From NCBI RefSeq assembly GCF_001984175.1, contig NZ_MTQP01000068.1, positions 930,001 through 994,000 on the forward strand: a stretch of DNA of 64,000 nucleotides, given 5' to 3'. This DNA is from Saccharothrix sp. ALI-22-I (GTDB lineage: Bacteria > Actinomycetota > Actinomycetes > Mycobacteriales > Pseudonocardiaceae). How positions within the stretch are numbered: position 1 is the stretch's first letter; each line of letters starts with the position of its first letter. Of this stretch, positions 10,850-62,590 are shown in pieces. The position numbers and the translations under genes were made by a program. The notes under the pieces are model-generated. The model was not told the DNA's origin. It was given only the letters and a program-made list of their open reading frames with translations, and searched no databases.

Positions 10850-10894
10850 GGGTCGTGCACGCATGAGGGTCGTGCACGCATGAGAATCGTTCAG
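10846..10894 (+). repeat. 17-bp tandem duplication of a start-codon region
   Basis: The unit ATGAGGGTCGTGCACGC occurs twice in direct succession (10846-10862, 10863-10879) and is followed by a third, diverged copy ATGAGAATCGTTCAGCT that opens the next gene. Each unit starts with ATGA. The first ATG overlaps the mgtA stop (10847-10849), but only the third ATG is in frame with the downstream gene. Confidence 0.85.
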
Positions 10895-11989
10895 CTGGCC
10901 AACTTCTACGGCCCGCGTTCCGGTGGTCTGCGCACGGCACTGCACCACCTCGGCAGTGGTTATGCGGCTCGCGGACACCAGGTCACGCTCGTCGTGCCCG
11001 GTCCTGCGCACGCCGATGAGGAGCTGTCGCCGGACGTCCGGCGCATCACGTTGCCCGCGCCGCAGATCCCGGGCACCGGTGGCTACCGGGCGGTCGACCC
11101 GTGGCGGATGCGGACGCTGTTGGACCACCTTTCACCTGATCGGCTGGAGGTGTCCGACCGGCTCACGTTGCGCGGTATGGGCCGGTGGGCGGCGGCGCGC
11201 GGGGTGCCGAGCGTGGTCATCTCGCACGAGCGGTTGGACCGGCTGCTGGAGCAGTTCCTGCTGCCGTCGGCGGTGGCGCGGCGGGGTGCGGACTGGGCGA
11301 ACGCGCGGATGGCCGCCTCCTACGACACGGTGGTGTGCACGACCGAGTTCGCGCGGGAGGAGTTCGACCGGATCGGGGCGCGCAACGTCGTCCGCGTGCC
11401 GTTGGGGGTGGACCTGCGCACGTTCACGCCGACCCGGCACGACCGGTCGCTCAAGGCTGATCTGGCGCGTGGGGCGGACGCGCTGCTCGTGCACTGCGGG
11501 CGGCTGTCGCCGGAGAAGCACGTCGAGCGCAGCGTGGACACGGCGGCTGAGCTGCACTCGGCCGGGCTCAACGTGCGGCTGGTGATCGCGGGTGACGGTC
11601 CGCGCCGTGAGGCGCTGGAACGCCGTGCCGCCGGGCTCCCCGTGACGTTTCTCGGCTTCGTCGGCCAGCGGACCGACGTGGCCGACCTGCTCGCCACGGC
11701 CGACGTGTCACTCGCCCCGGGCCCGCACGAGACGTTCGGCTTGGCGGCCCTCGAAGCCCTGGCTTCCGGCACCCCGGTCGTCGTCTCCGCTTCCTCGGCC
11801 TTGCGTGAAATCGTCCGCCCAGGCTGCGGCGCCGCAGTGGCCGACCACGCCCCGGCGTTCGCCGGCGCCGTCAACGCCCTTCTGGACGACCCGGAACCAA
11901 CCCGCCGCTCAGCCGCCCGCGCCCGCGCCGAGGAATACCCCTGGCAAACCGCCGTAGCCGGCATGCTCGCCGCCCTCCACGCCCCCTAA
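10880..11989 (+). CDS. GT4 family glycosyltransferase
   Basis: This second GT4 enzyme (369 residues) has an N-terminal GPRSGGLRTALHHL loop, HCGRLSPEKHVER in the donor domain and the E-x7-E motif HETFGLAALEAL. It differs clearly from the MgtA-like neighbour. The first residues MRIVQLANFYG are also encoded, in diverged form, by the two tandem copies just upstream, so the ATG at 10880 is the only in-frame member of three. Activity is probably on a lipid or sugar acceptor in the envelope; donor and acceptor are not determinable. The last 150 bp use many more C-ending codons than the rest of the gene. Confidence 0.82.
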   Translation: MRIVQLANFYGPRSGGLRTALHHLGSGYAARGHQVTLVVPGPAHADEELSPDVRRITLPAPQIPGTGGYRAVDPWRMRTLLDHLSPDRLEVSDRLTLRGMGRWAAARGVPSVVISHERLDRLLEQFLLPSAVARRGADWANARMAASYDTVVCTTEFAREEFDRIGARNVVRVPLGVDLRTFTPTRHDRSLKADLARGADALLVHCGRLSPEKHVERSVDTAAELHSAGLNVRLVIAGDGPRREALERRAAGLPVTFLGFVGQRTDVADLLATADVSLAPGPHETFGLAALEALASGTPVVVSASSALREIVRPGCGAAVADHAPAFAGAVNALLDDPEPTRRSAARARAEEYPWQTAVAGMLAALHAP

Positions 11990-11990
11990 C

Positions 11991-12286
11991 CGCGTGTCCA
12001 ACGTTCAGAACGCGCGTGTCGTACCTCCAGAACGCGCGTGTCCAACGTTCGCGTCGCGCGTGTCCTACGCTCAGAACACCCGAATTGAACGTTCAGAACA
12101 GGGCCGCCCGACGTGAGTGTTCAACTCGGGGTACCTGGACGTTGGACACGCGCGTTCGGAACGTTGGACACGCGCGTTCGGAACGTTGGACACGCGCGTT
12201 CGGAACGTTGGACACGCGCGTTCGGAACGTTGGACACGCGCGTTCTGGGCGTTGGACACGCGCGTTCTGGGCGTTGGACACGCGGG
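11991..12286. repeat. inverted array of 22-bp units around a hairpin core (copy 1)
   Basis: The left arm has five units of consensus CGCGCGTGTCCAACGTTCAG plus AA (ending at 12010, 12032, 12054, 12076, 12098, the last diverged). The right arm has seven units in the opposite orientation, TTCGGAACGTTGGACACGCG plus CG (starting 12133, 12155, 12177, 12199, 12221, 12243, 12265). Between them lies a core hairpin: CCCGAATTGAACGTTCAG near 12080-12097 and GTGAGTGTTCAACTCGGG at 12113-12130. The spacing is 22 bp throughout, with no unique spacers. Short open frames across it are products of the 22-bp periodicity. A second copy of the same design lies at 31582-31768. Confidence 0.92.
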
Positions 12287-12289
12287 GAT

Positions 12290-12295
12290 TAGGCT
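12290..12295 (+). promoter_or_regulatory. -10 element of menG, probably leaderless
   Basis: TAGGCT begins 4 bases after the last repeat unit and ends 6 bases before the menG ATG. There is no ribosome-binding site between them, so a leaderless mRNA is likely. The -35 region would fall inside the repeat array. Confidence 0.45.
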
Positions 12296-12301
12296 TTGGG
12301 T

Positions 12302-12991
12302 ATGGCGCGTGCTGGTCTGGACAAGAACCCCCACGAGGTCGCCGAGATGTTCGACGGGGTGGCCAAGGGCTACGACCGGACGAACTCGGTCATGACGCTC
12401 GGGTTCGACCGGCGCTGGCGGGAGTGGAGTCGGCGGGTTCTGGACGCGAAGCCCGGTGAGAAGGTTCTTGATCTCGCGGCGGGCACGGCGGTGTCGACCG
12501 TGGAGTACGCGGCCTCGGGTGCGTGGTGCGTGGCGGCCGACTTCTCGCTGGGGATGCTGCTCGGAGGCGCGCACCGGCCGGTGCCGAAGGTCGCCGCCGA
12601 CGCCCTGCACCTGCCGTTCGCCGACAACGCCTTCGACGCGGTCACCGTGTCCTTCGGGCTGCGGAATTTCAACGACACCGAGGCCGCGCTGCGCGAGATG
12701 GCCCGGGTCGTCAGGCCCGGCGGCCGGCTGGTGGTGTGCGAGGTCTCAACGCCGACGTTCCGCCCGTTCCGCTTCGTCTACATGCGCTACCTGCTCCGAA
12801 TCCTGCCGTTCATCGGCCGGCTCGTGTCCTCCAACCCGGACGCCTACCAGTACCTCGCCGAATCCATGCGCACCTGGCCCGACCAGCGCACGCTCGGCGA
12901 GATCGTGGCCCGCGCCGGCTGGGAGGACGTCGCCTGGATGAACCTCACCGGCGGCATGGTCGCCTTGCACCGCGGCACCAAACCCGCGTAG
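12302..12991 (+). CDS. menG: demethylmenaquinone methyltransferase
   Basis: This 229-residue SAM-dependent enzyme of the UbiE/MenG family methylates demethylmenaquinone, the last ring step. It shows the family opening [21 protein letters not shown] motif [10 protein letters not shown] (residues 55-63) and the post-motif [20 protein letters not shown]. In E. coli the same family also acts on ubiquinone; actinobacteria make only menaquinone. I prefer ATG at 12302 over the TTG two codons upstream because it matches the family start and the -10 spacing. The position between mgtA and menJ equals that of M. tuberculosis Rv0558. Confidence 0.93.
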
Positions 12992-30576: not shown

Positions 30577-31578
30577 GTGACCAGTAGCGAGCGGGCGGGG
30601 GCGGGGTTCCGGTTTGCGGACCCCGTGCTCGCGGAGGTGGTTCAGGACGGCCTGGCCGAGGTGGAAGAGCTGCTGCACAAGGCCGTGCACAGCGAGTTCC
30701 ACCCGGTGATGGAGACGTCCTTGCACCTGGTGTCCGCGGGCGGCAAGCGCATCCGCCCGCTGTTCACCATCCTGTCCGCCCAGTTCGGCGGCACGTGGGA
30801 CCGGGACAGCGTGATCAAGGCGGCGGCGGTCGTCGAGCTGACCCACCTCGCCACGCTCTACCACGACGACGTCATGGACGAGGCCACCATGCGCCGCGGC
30901 GCGGAGTCGGCCAACGCGAAGTGGGACAACAGCATCGCGATCCTGACCGGCGACTACCTGTTCGCGCACGCGTCGGCGCTGGTCGCGGACCTGGGCACGG
31001 GGGCGGCGAGGATCATCGCGGAGACGTTCTCCGAGCTGGTGACCGGGCAGATGCGCGAGACGATGGGGCCGCGTGACGGGGAGAACCCGGTCGCGCACTA
31101 CCTGACCACGATCGCGGAGAAGACCGGTTCGCTGATCGCCACCGCGGCCCGGTTCGGCGCGATGTTCTCCGACGTGACGCCGGAGCAGGTCGAGGCGCTG
31201 CACACGTACGGCAAGATCATCGGGGCGGCGTTCCAGATCTCGGACGACGTGATCGACATCGCGTCACCGTCGGAGGAGTCCGGCAAGACACCCGGCACGG
31301 ACCTGCGCGAGGGCGTGAAGACCCTCCCCATGCTGTACGCGCTGGAGGACGAGCCGAACTCCCGGCTGGCGAAGCTCCTGGCCGCCCCGATCACCGACGA
31401 CGCCGAGGTCCACGAGGCCCTGGACCTCCTCCGCGCGTCCACCGGCCTGGCCCGAGCCCGCCGAACCCTCGACGACTACGCCACCCGCGCCCGCGCCACC
31501 CTCCGCGTACTCCCCTCCGGCACCGCCCGCGACGCGCTGGAGTCCGTCAGCGAGTACGTAGTAACCCGCTCCCACTAA
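30577..31578 (+). CDS. long-chain polyprenyl diphosphate synthase
   Basis: This trans-isoprenyl diphosphate synthase (333 residues) has both Asp-rich motifs: DDVMD at residues 97-101, followed by the RRG motif, and DDVID at 223-227, plus GGKRIRP near residue 50. Small residues before the first motif (LATLYHDD) suggest a long product. The enzyme most likely makes the menaquinone side chain; M. tuberculosis GrcC1 (Rv0562) has the same neighbourhood (menJ upstream, htpX downstream). Chain length cannot be read reliably from sequence. GTG start, possibly leaderless. Confidence 0.9.
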   Translation: MTSSERAGAGFRFADPVLAEVVQDGLAEVEELLHKAVHSEFHPVMETSLHLVSAGGKRIRPLFTILSAQFGGTWDRDSVIKAAAVVELTHLATLYHDDVMDEATMRRGAESANAKWDNSIAILTGDYLFAHASALVADLGTGAARIIAETFSELVTGQMRETMGPRDGENPVAHYLTTIAEKTGSLIATAARFGAMFSDVTPEQVEALHTYGKIIGAAFQISDDVIDIASPSEESGKTPGTDLREGVKTLPMLYALEDEPNSRLAKLLAAPITDDAEVHEALDLLRASTGLARARRTLDDYATRARATLRVLPSGTARDALESVSEYVVTRSH

Positions 31579-31581
31579 CCC

Positions 31582-31768
31582 CCGCGTGTCCAACGTTGCG
31601 AACGCGCGTGTCCAACCTCCAGAACGCGCGTGTCCAACGTTGGGAACGCGCGTGTCCAACGTTCCGGTACCCCGAGTTGAACACTCAGGTCGTCGGCTCC
31701 TGTTCTGAGCGTTCAACTCGGGTGTTCTGAACGTTGGACACGCGTGACGCGAACGTTGGACACGCGCG
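31582..31768. repeat. inverted array of 22-bp units around a hairpin core (copy 2)
   Basis: Same design as at 11991-12286. Left arm: four units CGCGCGTGTCCAACGTTGGG plus AA type, ending 31602, 31624, 31646 and 31668. Core: CCCGAGTTGAACACTCAG (31671-31688) and CTGAGCGTTCAACTCGGG (31705-31722), an 18-bp stem with one mismatch and a 16-base loop. Right arm: two units TTCTGAACGTTGGACACGCG type (31725-31746, 31747-31768). It lies between the convergent polyprenyl synthase and rarD genes and could also act as a terminator. Confidence 0.92.
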
Positions 31769-31778
31769 GTTTCGACGG

Positions 31779-32705
31779 TTAGGTGAGGTCGGCTACGACG
31801 GGGACGCGGCGGCGGGTGCGGACGGCGTCGATGGTGAAGATGGCCAGGGCGATCCAGACCAGGGCGAAGCCGAACCAGCGGGACGCGGGCATCGGTTCGT
31901 GCATCACGAACACGCCCCAGCCGAACTGGAGCACGGGGGCCAGGTACTGGAGCATGCCCATGGTCACCAGCGGCACGAGTCGGGCGCCTGCGCCGAACAA
32001 GATGAGCGGGATCGCGGTGACCAGGCCGGTCGAGGCCATGATCAGCGCGTGGCCCCAGCCGTGCGACACGAACGTCCCGGCCGGGCCCAGCCAGATCAGG
32101 TAACCCACCGCGACCGGAGCCAGCACCAGGCTCTCCGCGGTCAGGCTGGCCGTCGCCTCCAGCGGCACCGTCTTCTTCAGCAGCCCGTAGAAGCCGAAAG
32201 AACAGGCCAGGGCCAGCGAGATCCACGGCAGCCTGCCGTAGTCCACGGCCAGCACCACGACGGCGGTCACCGCGATGGCGAGGGCGGCGTACTGCGGCAG
32301 GCGCAAACGTTCACGCAGCACGAACACCCCGAGCAGCACGCTCACCAGGGGGTTGATGAAGTAGCCGAGCGCGGCCTCCACGACGTGCCCGGTGTTGACC
32401 GCGTGGATGTAGACGCCCCAGTTGACCGCGATCAGCACGGACGCCGCCGTCACCATCGCCCAGCCCCGCCCGGACAGCCGGCGGATGCCAGCCCACCGGC
32501 CGAGCACCGCGGTGATGATCGCCATCACGACCAGTGACCACGCGATCCGGTGCGCCAGGATCTCCACCGACCCGGCCGGCTGCAGCAACGGCCAGTAAGC
32601 GGGCACGATGCCCCAGAGGAAGTAGGCGCCGGCGCCGAAAGCCACTCCCCGGTTCGGGCGGTTAACTTCCGTCGAAACAGTGGAGGAGTTAGTCAACGGC
32701 GGCAC
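31779..32705 (-). CDS. rarD: RarD-type EamA transporter
   Basis: This 308-residue protein is a ten-helix EamA/DMT transporter of the RarD group. It opens with FGAGAYFLWGIVPAYWPLLQ and ILAHRIAWSL, the RarD signature, and has GYFINPLVSVLLGVFVLRERL in the middle. The RarD name comes from a chloramphenicol-sensitivity phenotype; transported substrates are not established. GTG start; the first 20 residues are hydrophilic. The 200-bp gap to the divergent gene at 32904 holds a 7-bp hairpin CCAGCCA-TTT-TGGCTGG (32722-32738). Confidence 0.88.
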   Translation of the reverse strand: MPPLTNSSTVSTEVNRPNRGVAFGAGAYFLWGIVPAYWPLLQPAGSVEILAHRIAWSLVVMAIITAVLGRWAGIRRLSGRGWAMVTAASVLIAVNWGVYIHAVNTGHVVEAALGYFINPLVSVLLGVFVLRERLRLPQYAALAIAVTAVVVLAVDYGRLPWISLALACSFGFYGLLKKTVPLEATASLTAESLVLAPVAVGYLIWLGPAGTFVSHGWGHALIMASTGLVTAIPLILFGAGARLVPLVTMGMLQYLAPVLQFGWGVFVMHEPMPASRWFGFALVWIALAIFTIDAVRTRRRVPVVADLT

Positions 32706-32903: not shown

Positions 32904-35153
32904 GTGAGTTCGCTCTTCGGGCAGGTGTGGCTGTGGAGCCTGCTGTCCTTCGTGGCAGGCGTCGCACTCACCTGGCTGGTCCTGGTGCGTCCGGCGAAGC
33001 GCGAGCTGGAAGACCTTGAGGAACGCCTCCTCGCATCTCCGCGGCCCGCGCCTCAGGCTTCCGCGGCCAGTTCGGTCGGGCTCAAGTCGCAACCGCGCGA
33101 CGAGTTCGACAACTGGCACGTCGAGGCGTCCCGTTCGTTGGCGGACGACGTGCTCACGCCGGAACGCACGCGGTTCGAGGCTCCTCTTGAGCCGACCCGC
33201 TACGAGTCCTCCGGTTTCGAGTCCTCGGGCCACGAGTCTTCCGTCGAGGCGCCGCGCTACGACATGTCGAACATCAAGCTCGACGAGCGCGACTCGCTGC
33301 TGGAGGAGTTGGACGACGAGCACCGGCCGTTGTCGGACTTCGAGGAGCAGCACGACTTCCCGGAGTTCGAGGCCGAGCCGCCGCGCCGCATGTTCGACCG
33401 GCTGTCGCCCGAGGCCGGTCACGACACCCGGGAGACGCTGGAGCCGAGGCCCCGGTCGCTGGTGGAGCAGTCCCGGCCACCGTTGGAGCCGCCGCCGTTC
33501 AAGCCGTCGCCCCGGCCGCGCCAGTACACGCCCGACGACGAGCCGGAGCTGCCCGCCGAGGCGACGCAACTCATGCCGGTCGTGCCGCCGACGCCGGTCG
33601 CCGAGGTCGCGCCGCCGCAGGAGGAGCCGACCGCCCCGCCGGAGGTCCAGGTCTTCCAGCCGCGCGAGGTGTGGCGCGAGGAGCCCGTCCAGGAGGTCTA
33701 CGACGAGGACGAGGTCGCGGGCGGTCACGAGGAGGAGGACGAGCCGGAACGCCGGCCCGCGTCCGCCGAGGAGACCGCGCTCATCCCGGCGACCGCGTTG
33801 GCCCAGGCCATCGCCGAGGTGGACAACGAGCAGCGCCGTCCGGCCGAGCCCGAGACCGAGCCCGAGCAGGAGCCCCAGGTCTGGTCCGAGGAGCGCCGAC
33901 GTCCGGCCGAGCCGGAGCCGCAGGTCTGGCCCGAGCACGACCTGACCGGCCACTTCTCGCCCGTCGACGTCGAGTCGACACGCGGTGAGCTGTCCGAGCG
34001 GACGGCCGAGGCATCCCGCAGCGAGGCGCTCCGTAGTGAGGCCGCCCGAAGCGAGGCATTCCACAGCGAGATCTCCCGCAATGAGGCCTCCCGGAGCGAT
34101 GTACTCCGGAGCGATGCATCCCGTAACGAGGCCTCGCGAGGCGAGGCACCGCCGCGCAGCGAGGTGTCTCGGAGTGATGAGCCCTCGAACGACCTGTTCA
34201 GGAACGACGGACCTCGGACCGAGGTCATGAGCGCCATCGTCGATTCCCCGCCGGTGGAGTCGAAGCCTGAGATCGTCGAGCCGACCGCGCTCGCCGAGCC
34301 CGTTGCCGAGCCCGTTGCCGCGCCCGAGCCGCCGCGTGCGCCCGAGCCCGCGGTCGTCGAGCCGGTCGCGCCCGCCGAGCCCGAGGTGAAGGCCCCGGCG
34401 CCGGTGGAGCCCCCGGCCTTCGAGCCGACGTTCGTCCAGCCCTCGTCCCAGCCGGTCAAGCCCCAGCCGGTCGAACCCAAGGCCGCCGAGCCCAAGCCCG
34501 CCGAGGTCAAGCCCGCAGAGGCCAAGCCCGTCGAGCCGAAGCCCGCAGAGGCCAAGGTCGAGCCGAAGAAGGACGAGCCCACACGGCCGCGCAGCCTGTT
34601 CGAGCCGCTGCTGGACACGGACGAGGAGCCGGAGCCCGAGCAGACCCGGCCGACCCCGCCGCCCGCGTCCGGCAACGACCAGCCGTTCGTGCCCACGCTC
34701 TCGCCCGAACTGCTGGCCGGCAACCCCACCCCGCTGACCGCGAACGGCCTGCCGCAGCGCCCCACCCGTCCGACGGGCTCGCCGCGCACGCCTTCCCCCG
34801 CACCGCTCTCGCCGAAGCCGGCCACGCCGCCACCACCGCCACCGCTTCCGGTGCGCCCGCGCCCGGTCGGGTTCAGCCCGAGCACCGGTGGCCGGCCTGC
34901 CGCCGCGTCCGGCAACAGCCCCCGCTACCAGGGCCAACAGGAGGGCTTCAACCCGCGCTCGCCGTTCGGCCCCGGTTCGGTGCTGCCGAAGTCCGACGGC
35001 CTGGCGCCCGCGCCGGAGTTCCAGGTCAAGGCGACCCTGACCGGCCGCCGATACTTCACCAACGAGTCGGCGAACTTCCGCGAGACCCGCGCCGACGTCT
35101 GGTTCCGCACCACCTCGGACGCCGAGAAGGCCGGCTTCCGCCAAGCCCCGTAA
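32904..35153 (+). CDS. membrane-anchored acidic/proline-rich protein with C-terminal sunset-like motif
   Basis: The 749-residue product has one N-terminal membrane helix (about residues 8-28), then about 670 residues of Glu/Pro/Arg-rich, presumably disordered sequence, and a compact end (about 700-745) with YFTNESANF and ETRADVWFRTTSDAEKAGF. That end resembles the 'sunset' motif (YHxPxSxxYxxTxAxVWFxTxxxAExAGF) seen at the C-terminus of actinobacterial envelope proteins such as ArfC-type channel accessory proteins. The acidic middle contains a run of 5-residue repeats (SRSEA type) and a KPAE-type repeat. The GTG at 32904 is chosen because GGGAGGG precedes it. Function unknown; a scaffold at the membrane is plausible. 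The His/Cys content of the motif is low, so metal binding is doubtful. Confidence 0.7.
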   Translation: MSSLFGQVWLWSLLSFVAGVALTWLVLVRPAKRELEDLEERLLASPRPAPQASAASSVGLKSQPRDEFDNWHVEASRSLADDVLTPERTRFEAPLEPTRYESSGFESSGHESSVEAPRYDMSNIKLDERDSLLEELDDEHRPLSDFEEQHDFPEFEAEPPRRMFDRLSPEAGHDTRETLEPRPRSLVEQSRPPLEPPPFKPSPRPRQYTPDDEPELPAEATQLMPVVPPTPVAEVAPPQEEPTAPPEVQVFQPREVWREEPVQEVYDEDEVAGGHEEEDEPERRPASAEETALIPATALAQAIAEVDNEQRRPAEPETEPEQEPQVWSEERRRPAEPEPQVWPEHDLTGHFSPVDVESTRGELSERTAEASRSEALRSEAARSEAFHSEISRNEASRSDVLRSDASRNEASRGEAPPRSEVSRSDEPSNDLFRNDGPRTEVMSAIVDSPPVESKPEIVEPTALAEPVAEPVAAPEPPRAPEPAVVEPVAPAEPEVKAPAPVEPPAFEPTFVQPSSQPVKPQPVEPKAAEPKPAEVKPAEAKPVEPKPAEAKVEPKKDEPTRPRSLFEPLLDTDEEPEPEQTRPTPPPASGNDQPFVPTLSPELLAGNPTPLTANGLPQRPTRPTGSPRTPSPAPLSPKPATPPPPPPLPVRPRPVGFSPSTGGRPAAASGNSPRYQGQQEGFNPRSPFGPGSVLPKSDGLAPAPEFQVKATLTGRRYFTNESANFRETRADVWFRTTSDAEKAGFRQAP
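34012..34193 (+). repeat. 15-bp coding repeats (pentapeptide R-S-E-A-x)
   Basis: About ten diverged copies of a 15-bp unit code for SRSEA, LRSEA, ARSEA, FHSEI, SRNEA, SRSDV, LRSDA, SRNEA, SRGEA in succession. The units alternate basic and acidic residues. The DNA copies have diverged more than the peptides, which suggests selection on the protein rather than very recent slippage. Confidence 0.85.
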
Positions 35154-41290: not shown

Positions 41291-42049
41291 GTGACGCGGG
41301 ACGAGCGCGAGCTGGCGTGGCCACGACACCAGCGCATGGAGTTCCACCAGCCGTCGACCGACCTGGCCGGGCTCGTGGCCCGCTACTGGGTGGTGGAGTG
41401 GCGGTACGACCGGCCCTACCGCCAGCTGATCGTGCCCTACCCGAACGTCCACCTCAGCTTCGTCGACGGCCGCCCCGCCGAGGTGCACGGCGTGTCCAGC
41501 GGGCACGTGTTCAAGGAGCTCGACGGCACGGGCCGGGTGTTCGGCGTCGCGTTCCACCCCGGCGTCTTCCGGCCGTTCCTCGGCGGACCGGTCCAGTCGA
41601 TCACCGACCGGTCCATCCCCGCGGCAACCGTGTTCGACGGCCTGCCCGGTCACCCCGACGTCCCGGCAGTCGAGGACGTGCTGCGCCGGAACCTGCCGGA
41701 ACCCGACCCGAGGGCACGACAGGCGGCGGACGTCGTGAACCTGATCGTCGAAGACCCCCGGATGACCAGAGTGGACGTGCTGGCAGACGAGGTGGGCAGC
41801 AGTGTCCGGCAGCTGCAACGCCTGTTCGCCGAACACGTCGGCGTCGGCCCGAAGTGGGTGATCCGCCGCTACCGCCTGCGCGAGGTCACCGAACGCATGG
41901 AGGCGGGCGGGCGGATCGACTGGGCCGCCCTCGCCGCCGACCTCGGCTACGCGGACCAGCCGCACTTCGTTCGAGACTTCACGGCAATGTTCGGTGAGAC
42001 CCCCACCCGGTACGCCGAGCGGTACGCGCGCCTACCAGCCGAGCGGTAG
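41291..42049 (+). CDS. AraC-family transcriptional regulator
   Basis: The 252-residue protein has an N-terminal domain of DUF6597 type (LAGLVARYWVVEW; VHLSFVDGRPAEVHG; VFGVAFHPGVFRPF) and a C-terminal double helix-turn-helix (VDVLADEVGSSVRQLQRLF; LAADLGYADQPHFVRDF). GTG start at 41291, 63 bp from the divergent DinB-fold gene, its likely target. The effector is unknown. Confidence 0.85.
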   Translation: MTRDERELAWPRHQRMEFHQPSTDLAGLVARYWVVEWRYDRPYRQLIVPYPNVHLSFVDGRPAEVHGVSSGHVFKELDGTGRVFGVAFHPGVFRPFLGGPVQSITDRSIPAATVFDGLPGHPDVPAVEDVLRRNLPEPDPRARQAADVVNLIVEDPRMTRVDVLADEVGSSVRQLQRLFAEHVGVGPKWVIRRYRLREVTERMEAGGRIDWAALAADLGYADQPHFVRDFTAMFGETPTRYAERYARLPAER

Positions 42050-58222: not shown

Positions 58223-59098
<876 letters not shown>

Positions 59099-62203: not shown

Positions 62204-62590
62204 ATGGCGAAGCTCAGCACCGACGAGCTGCTCGACGCGTTCAAGGAGATGACCCTCCTGGAGCTGTCGGCCTTCGTGAAGCAGTTCGAGGAGACCTTCG
62301 AGGTCACCGCCGCCGCGCCGGTCGCCGTTGCCGCTGCCGGCCCGGCCGCCGCTGCCGCTCCCGCCGAGGAGGAGAAGGACGAGTTCACCGTCGTCCTCGA
62401 GGGCGCCGGCGAGAAGAAGATCCAGGTCATCAAGGTCGTCCGCGAGGTCGTCTCGGGCCTGGGCCTGAAGGAGGCCAAGGAGCTCGTCGAGTCCGCTCCG
62501 AAGGCGATCCTGGAGAACGTGGCGAAGGACGTCGCCGACGCCGCCAAGGAGAAGCTCGAGGCTGCCGGCGCCAAGATCTCGCTCAAGTGA
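62204..62590 (+). CDS. rplL: 50S ribosomal protein L7/L12
   Basis: L7/L12 (128 residues) with the N-terminal dimer domain ([19 protein letters not shown]), an Ala/Pro-rich hinge and the C-terminal factor-binding domain ([26 protein letters not shown]). ATG behind AGAAAGGA. Present in several copies per ribosome; co-transcribed with rplJ and followed by a terminator. Confidence 0.98.

Follow-up and report, generated by a model that had tools for sequence, protein, structure and literature searches.

What is the array of 22-bp units that fills the space between a glycosyltransferase-like gene (10880-11989, + strand, named from a reading of its sequence) and a menG-like methyltransferase gene (12302-12991, + strand, named in the first-pass annotation) of Saccharothrix sp. 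ALI-22-I, and does it stand alone? The array, here called element 1 (11991-12284), lies in a window of 64,000 nucleotides, the whole stretch of DNA that was analysed; it begins 1 nt after the stop codon of the first gene and ends 17 nt before the start codon of the second. Element 1 consists of two facing arms, and all of its units are 22 bp long. The left arm (+) holds four outer (O) units (11991-12012, 12013-12034, 12035-12056, and 12057-12078), set by the 22-bp register, and one inner (I) unit (CCCGAATTGAACGTTCAGAACA, 12079-12100), set by the register together with the O(n)I grammar described below. The same register places a loop of 8 nt that belongs to neither strand (12101-12108), a right I unit (CCCGAGTTGAACACTCACGTCG, 12109-12130, -), and a right arm of seven O units (12131-12284, -), four of which are identical (12153-12240). 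The O units mostly carry the core GTGTCCAACGTTC and the I units GARTTGAAC; the scripts separate the two at core position 5 (C in O, T in I).

The first-pass annotation had described the array as 5 + 7 units around a hairpin. The array is the same one, but its right hairpin arm is itself an I unit, hence 5 + 8 in the 22-bp register; the four identical right-hand units reported at 12155-12242 are likewise the present ones in a shifted register. The right arm had been placed within 4 bases of the menG -10 element, which is one base too close: the edge of the array (12284) is 5 bases before TAGGCT (12290-12295), a putative -10 read from the sequence. The right arm sits before a gene start, that of the menG-like gene, and not behind a stop codon, and since an arm of element 1 thus faces a start codon, genes and arms do not in general pair one to one. 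As a whole, element 1 is an inverted repeat with 136-nt arms that are 76% complementary, and its RNA is predicted to fold at -205.7 kcal/mol (z -14 relative to 100 dinucleotide-shuffled sequences).

One answer would be that a short repeat expanded locally by chance next to menG, unrelated to any family, and the four identical adjacent units would fit it. However, the core is not confined to menG. With up to 3 mismatches, the core CGCGTGTCCAACGTT occurs 19 times in the window (4.1 expected; maximum of 10 in 100 shuffles), and the genome (10.3 Mb, 69 contigs) contains 362 cores with at most 1 mismatch, 181 on each strand, against 0 for the reversed pattern. Together with the presence of a generic unit, GWGTYNWACGYTCNGRAC, in 14 of 25 genomes of the genus, these counts refute a local expansion, which retains practically no chance of being right, and make element 1 a member of a genome-wide intergenic family. 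The generic unit itself has 361 matches in this genome. The number of elements depends on how it is estimated, and lies at roughly 130 to 270 in this genome: 66 sampled elements hold 185 generic-unit matches, which gives about 129, and a density of 9 elements in 344 kb gives about 270. Among the first 100 core places listed for this genome (G000), about 10 clusters fall in a 100-kb stretch of contig C61 (206-309 kb) and about 8 in a 56-kb stretch of contig C62 (119-176 kb), both denser than the genome average.

A second member, element 2 (31583-31766), lies in the same window between two convergent genes. Its unit register gives four O units (31583-31670, +), an I unit (31671-31692, +), an 8-nt loop assigned to no strand (31693-31700), an I unit on the opposite strand (31701-31722, -), and two O units (31723-31766, -). 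A polyprenyl synthetase-like gene (30577-31578, +) ends 4 nt before it, and an EamA/RarD-like transporter gene (31779-32705, -) converges on it from 12 nt away; both were named from sequence reading. Outside these two elements, the sole unit-like site in the window scoring above 4 is a weak one (6.3 at 41701). Three other stretches of the window (34007-34148, 58405-58479, and 62302-62366) carry tandem repeats whose periods are multiples of three (15/45, 18/36, and 18/24 bp) and which are possibly coding.

The grammar of the family emerges from a pooled set of 203 elements from 141 DNA stretches, with two of the elements being one piece of DNA that entered the set twice (G005 tile, L137); most loci were chosen by unit matches, and four stretches were chosen by location, in the surroundings of the window and of its counterparts. 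An arm has between one and nine outer units (core GWGTCSWACGYTC), and in most cases a single inner unit (GAGTTSWACGYTC) closes it; the overall unit consensus is CGCGTGTCCAACGTTCAGAACACGC. The O(n)I order holds in 262 of 323 arms; 50 have O units only, 1 has I then O, and 10 are of other kinds. With capitals for + units and lower case for - units, the commonest forms are OI.io (46 elements), OI (42), io (39), and io.OI (19), the remaining forms being rarer. Neighbouring same-strand units stand exactly 22 bp apart in 858 of 867 junctions, a count in which a unit broken by an indel may be missed, and yet they differ on average at 5.6 of 22 bases, with 4% identical. Around single arms (24 from this genome, 61 from others), a C-rich CC.CG lies ahead of the O end, and no sequence conservation was seen beyond the I end. 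Because the units abut at 22 bp, without unique spacers, a CRISPR array is rejected, as the first-pass annotation had also concluded. Its suggestion that the elements grow by units fits the 1 to 10 units found per arm. Gain or loss of whole units is likely, since their number varies within the genome and, among relatives, at the same site.

The family has a restricted distribution. Within the genus, the 14 genomes with the generic unit hold 22 to 436 matches each (controls 0), and form one clade in a four-protein tree made by a quick method (SH-aLRT 97), within which 11 genomes make up an inner clade (SH-aLRT 98); the generic unit has no match in the 11 genus genomes outside the clade. Across 297 genomes of the family Pseudonocardiaceae, it matches 36, namely these 14, six genomes beyond the genus clade with at least 10 matches (114, 82, 13, 12, 10, and 10), and 16 with one or two. 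The named organisms among the matches listed are Saccharothrix species and one Actinophytocola MAG. Among 394 genomes of the class, the generic unit occurs once each in 12 besides the present one, and these single matches look like chance because the reversed control matches 6 genomes.

A related arrangement is present in other genera. The pattern GAGTCMTSCACTCRG matches 15 of 150 family genomes, with 29 matches in G064, 4 each in G067 and G076, and single ones in 12 genomes (its reversed control matches 6 genomes, once or twice each). In G064, G067, and G076, which represent three other genera, 11 of 12 fetched loci contain 18 arms with a pitch of 21 bp, in which GAGTC units make up the arm and GAGTT units close it; 14 of the 18 fit O(n)I(m). 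Of the 16 arms whose distance could be measured, 15 have their O end 4-14 nt behind a stop codon and one has it 33 nt behind, and 3 I-ends are also within 13 nt of a converging stop. Where arms face each other in these genera, the inverted array can be read as the arms of two genes. Genus g45 (G215 and G239) has 21-bp elements as well; in loci L256-L263 of these genomes, the arms and, in several, the adjoining flanks look complementary by eye, as in CAACACGGTCG / CGACCGTGTTG of L256. The constant feature is a polar O(n)I array at 22- (or 21-) bp pitch beside stop codons. The exactness of the pitch could reflect homogenisation instead of selection.

By type of gap, 108 of the 203 elements are convergent, 73 tandem, and 6 divergent, with 1 inside a gene and 15 undetermined, whereas the same DNA has 262 convergent, 861 tandem, and 406 divergent background gaps of at least 40 bp; the genes come from a home-made caller, so that starts may be misplaced and stops are safer. 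A first look at 60 elements of this genome had given 32 convergent, 24 tandem, and 2 divergent, with 2 overlapping a predicted gene. In the four stretches picked by place, elements occupy 16 of the 167 convergent gaps and 16 of the 882 tandem ones, and none of the 166 that are divergent. The edge of the array lies at a median of 7 nt from the stop codon in convergent gaps, and in tandem gaps the median distance is 5 nt to the upstream stop vs. 82 nt to the downstream start; 15 of the 46 OI.io facing pairs are in tandem gaps. In the window's clade, 123 O-ends vs. 89 I-ends lie at stops (p 0.02), and the single arms in tandem gaps divide 23 vs. 13 by polarity (p 0.13), so that polarity toward stops is weak in this clade, and looser than in the three other genera. 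At I-ends the stop codon is often within the unit (25 of 104 in one register). TAA makes up 66 of 177 stops at O-ends vs. 196 of 2568 overall, an enrichment of about fivefold, and the end of the repeat could supply the stop codon.

Tentatively, we favor reading the elements as polar arrays that sit at the 3' ends of genes and are made of recognition sites, predicted to be bound by a protein and to stop or insulate transcription. An array of bound protein is suggested because the arms share position, polarity, and a near-invariant pitch of about two helical turns despite their diverged letters; from these features we infer both the binding protein and a role in ending transcription. Each unit would be a recognition site read as double-stranded DNA by a putative protein, and units two helical turns apart would let the bound copies line up on one face. 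A filled array may then stop or insulate transcription where a gene ends, and two arms between convergent genes could serve both of them. Units would be gained and lost by duplication or deletion and partly exchanged between loci, leaving dialects that are partly species-specific. On the other hand, a single protein would hardly be expected to read core letters that change from dialect to dialect; the right arm of element 1 before a gene start, the facing pairs in tandem gaps, the weak polarity in the window's clade, and the I-ends near converging stops in the other genera also count against this reading. A more specific form of the proposal makes the elements a counterpart of protein-bound terminator arrays, in which a dedicated, dialect-varying protein on 21-22 bp sites behind stops would end or insulate transcription at more than 100 loci without an RNA hairpin, the site letters and the specificity co-changing between species; this is rather unlikely. 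The Sal-box/TTF-I terminator arrays of animal rDNA are tandem, short, orientation-dependent protein sites right behind a gene. They are comparable in the way they work only; the arrays described here are bacterial, occupy more than 100 loci, and have a putative protein. The DNA uptake sequences of Neisseria are likewise numerous, frequently form inverted pairs where genes end, and differ between species at a few positions. This resemblance is also limited to how the sequences work; the present elements are 22-bp arrays with a grammar.

An alternative is that these are ordinary RNA-hairpin terminators, in which convergent genes share a long two-way stem-loop and selection on pairing keeps the arms complementary. 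Facing pairs (median z -12.9; 30 of 54 folded) and outward pairs (-8.7; 30 of 35) indeed fold far better than shuffles, and core position 6 is the same in the first outer units of both facing arms in all 62 pairs (74% under within-genome shuffling, 0 of 500 shuffles), with above-chance agreement at core positions 2 and 7 as well. Moreover, the letters at the same site differ between relatives while the arms mostly stay complementary, and several g45 elements look nearly fully complementary by eye. Single arms, however, fold weakly (median z -1.6; 30 of 100 folded), as do 8 arms of the other genera (z -2.0 to +0.6), and whole convergent gaps with a single arm (median z -3.1, n = 36) are no more structured than element-free gaps (-3.8, n = 42). 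A stable stem-loop behind the stop was therefore found in two-arm elements, but not in single arms. As a lone O(n)I arm in either direction makes up 81 of the 203 elements and folds hardly better than shuffles, the "conserved hairpin" noted in the first-pass annotation is not the defining part of the element. Nor do core position 11 and linker positions 14, 16, and 19 covary more than a little, if at all, between facing arms. In the sense RNA of tandem gaps, G-U and A-C mismatches are about equally frequent (88 vs. 81, p 0.64; by a second method 88 vs. 72, p 0.24), and compensatory RNA pairing in the sense strand is not supported by these counts. Rank-by-rank mirroring of the arms is not supported either, since agreement between facing arms is about equal to agreement within arms; because of this, and because outward-facing neighbours show no such agreement (25 of 46 vs. 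64% under the null), a facing pair behaves as one element. In the window's clade, the flanks show no excess of palindromes beyond the units. RNA structure explains only part of the elements, and a terminator hairpin as their general explanation is unlikely. Intrinsic terminators built of hairpin clusters, as far as the available part of their description goes, are similar in standing close behind the stop with several repeats in a row, but differ in that the single arms here fold hardly better than shuffles (PMC8355165). A search of Rfam with window positions 11800-12500 gave two matches, both below threshold (nrdJ, 24.2 of 40.3 bits; Ysr251, 16.7 of 100), and no Rfam family is assigned.

A comparison of relatives bears on a further explanation. 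The sites of elements 1 and 2 are filled in 11 of 11 inner-clade genomes, and the unit numbers at the same site differ between relatives. The core letters at the window sites are CCA here and CGA, CCT, or CGT in relatives, mostly alike in both arms. According to the gap sequences of the three clade members outside the inner clade, G008, G009, and G020, the element 2 site holds no element in any of them, and the menG site has an outward pair in G020 and nothing in G008 and G009. Outside the clade, the menG upstream gap without an element is 612 to 860 bp long in G007, G021, G023, G018, and G012 (L058, L059, L064, L065, L067), GC-rich and partly repetitive in G021, G023, and G012 (for instance, a GGCGGCTGCGGGAC run in G023), and 22 bp long in G024. 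The element 2 gap of G024 (L282), which is also outside the clade, has diverged units, GAGTCATGCGTTCAG then GAAATGTGCACTCGT, 22 bp apart; these sequences hint at an older superfamily. Sites of the present genome in conserved gene pairs are filled in 7 of 8 cases in G022, 4 of 8 in G014, and 4 of 5 in G005; one gap is filled in G014 and G022 and empty here, and one empty gap of G014 is 10 bp.

That filled sites differ between species, including the one empty here, speaks for a selfish or neutral interspersed repeat of the REP/BIME or MIRU kind, spread by some agent and surviving best beside stops because insertion elsewhere harms, with no function for the host. This explanation is possible, and almost as likely as a protein-bound array. 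It would account for the range of 22 to 436 unit matches per genome within one clade and for the TAA excess at O-ends, where the stop would come with the end of the repeat. It also fits the likeness of the elements at the two window sites to other loci of the same genome (88-92% for the best four), since their counterparts at the same site in other genomes reach at most 85%. A fuller homogenisation test (16 tests in 8 genomes, sampling up to 10 same-genome loci per genome, from 7 to 64) found that same-genome loci beat sampled other-genome loci in 12 of 16 tests and the best same-site relative in 3 of 16. Strong concerted evolution, the first reading, was weakened by the latter result; homogenisation is judged partial, as the closeness of own loci recurs in 3 of 16 tests.

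The first-pass annotation had called the element mobile-like. This claim has indirect support, in that sites differ between species; neither a transposase of matching distribution nor a target-site duplication was found, nor, in the fetched DNA, an autonomous copy. Flanking direct repeats of 4, 5, 6, and 8 bp number 11, 2, 1, and 0 among 56 facing elements, not significantly above 200 shuffles, which argues against a selfish repeat and leaves a transposon with target duplication unsupported. Facing pairs less than 4 kb apart in the fetched DNA (10, one counted twice) enclose genes that look, by eye, like host genes, and the tight spacing to the upstream stop in tandem gaps is a further point against a selfish repeat, as is the fact that three other genera show the polar grammar and the anchoring at stops again. 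The Y1 transposase (PF01797) is present in 5 of 25 genus genomes, missing from 11 of the 14 that bear elements, and found in two without generic-unit matches; this distribution does not match that of the elements, so that RAYT-driven REP repeats are not supported. A plasmid- or phage-borne element is not supported either, element 1 having no match in plasmids and element 2 none in phages (one element per collection).

REP/BIME units are palindromes of 20-40 bp ending in GTAG or CGTC and occur with RAYT transposases. The present elements differ from them and from REPINs in their fixed 22-bp tandem pitch, their polar end unit, and the unmatched distribution of the Y1 transposase; unlike REP/BIME, the consensus has no GTAG or CGTC end tag (by eye), and single arms lack a clear hairpin. 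The MIRU of mycobacteria, which are related bacteria, also lie between genes at stop codons as tandem units whose number varies; they differ in having units of 46-100 bp in one orientation. BOX elements of Streptococcus pneumoniae are modular, with end modules and a variable number of middle modules, while the modules here, inner and outer, are 22-bp units homologous to each other. In the available part of one account, REPs lie mostly in convergent and tandem gaps, a preference that a selfish repeat would share (PMC3733652). With REP, BIME, and REPIN repeats the elements also have in common that they are short, high-copy, intergenic, and often paired in opposite orientation (PMC3733652, same part). 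Nothing in the available portions of the literature covered (PMC6749651, PMC4679880, PMC8355165, PMC4210621), a scope with subscription papers mostly outside it, was recognised as this 22-bp repeat, and the word "repeat" is absent from the available portion of the S. espanaensis genome text (PMC3469384).

For a group of Pseudonocardiaceae, these arrays would label the ends of genes with a mark that can be counted, that follows a simple grammar, and that has dialects by species. Were a protein to read them, GC-rich bacteria would have a means of ending genes that needs no hairpin; were they selfish, they would be repeats that settle next to stop codons and have no known transposase. In both cases, dialects that change while the sites stay fixed would offer a natural experiment on the evolution of bacterial repeats.
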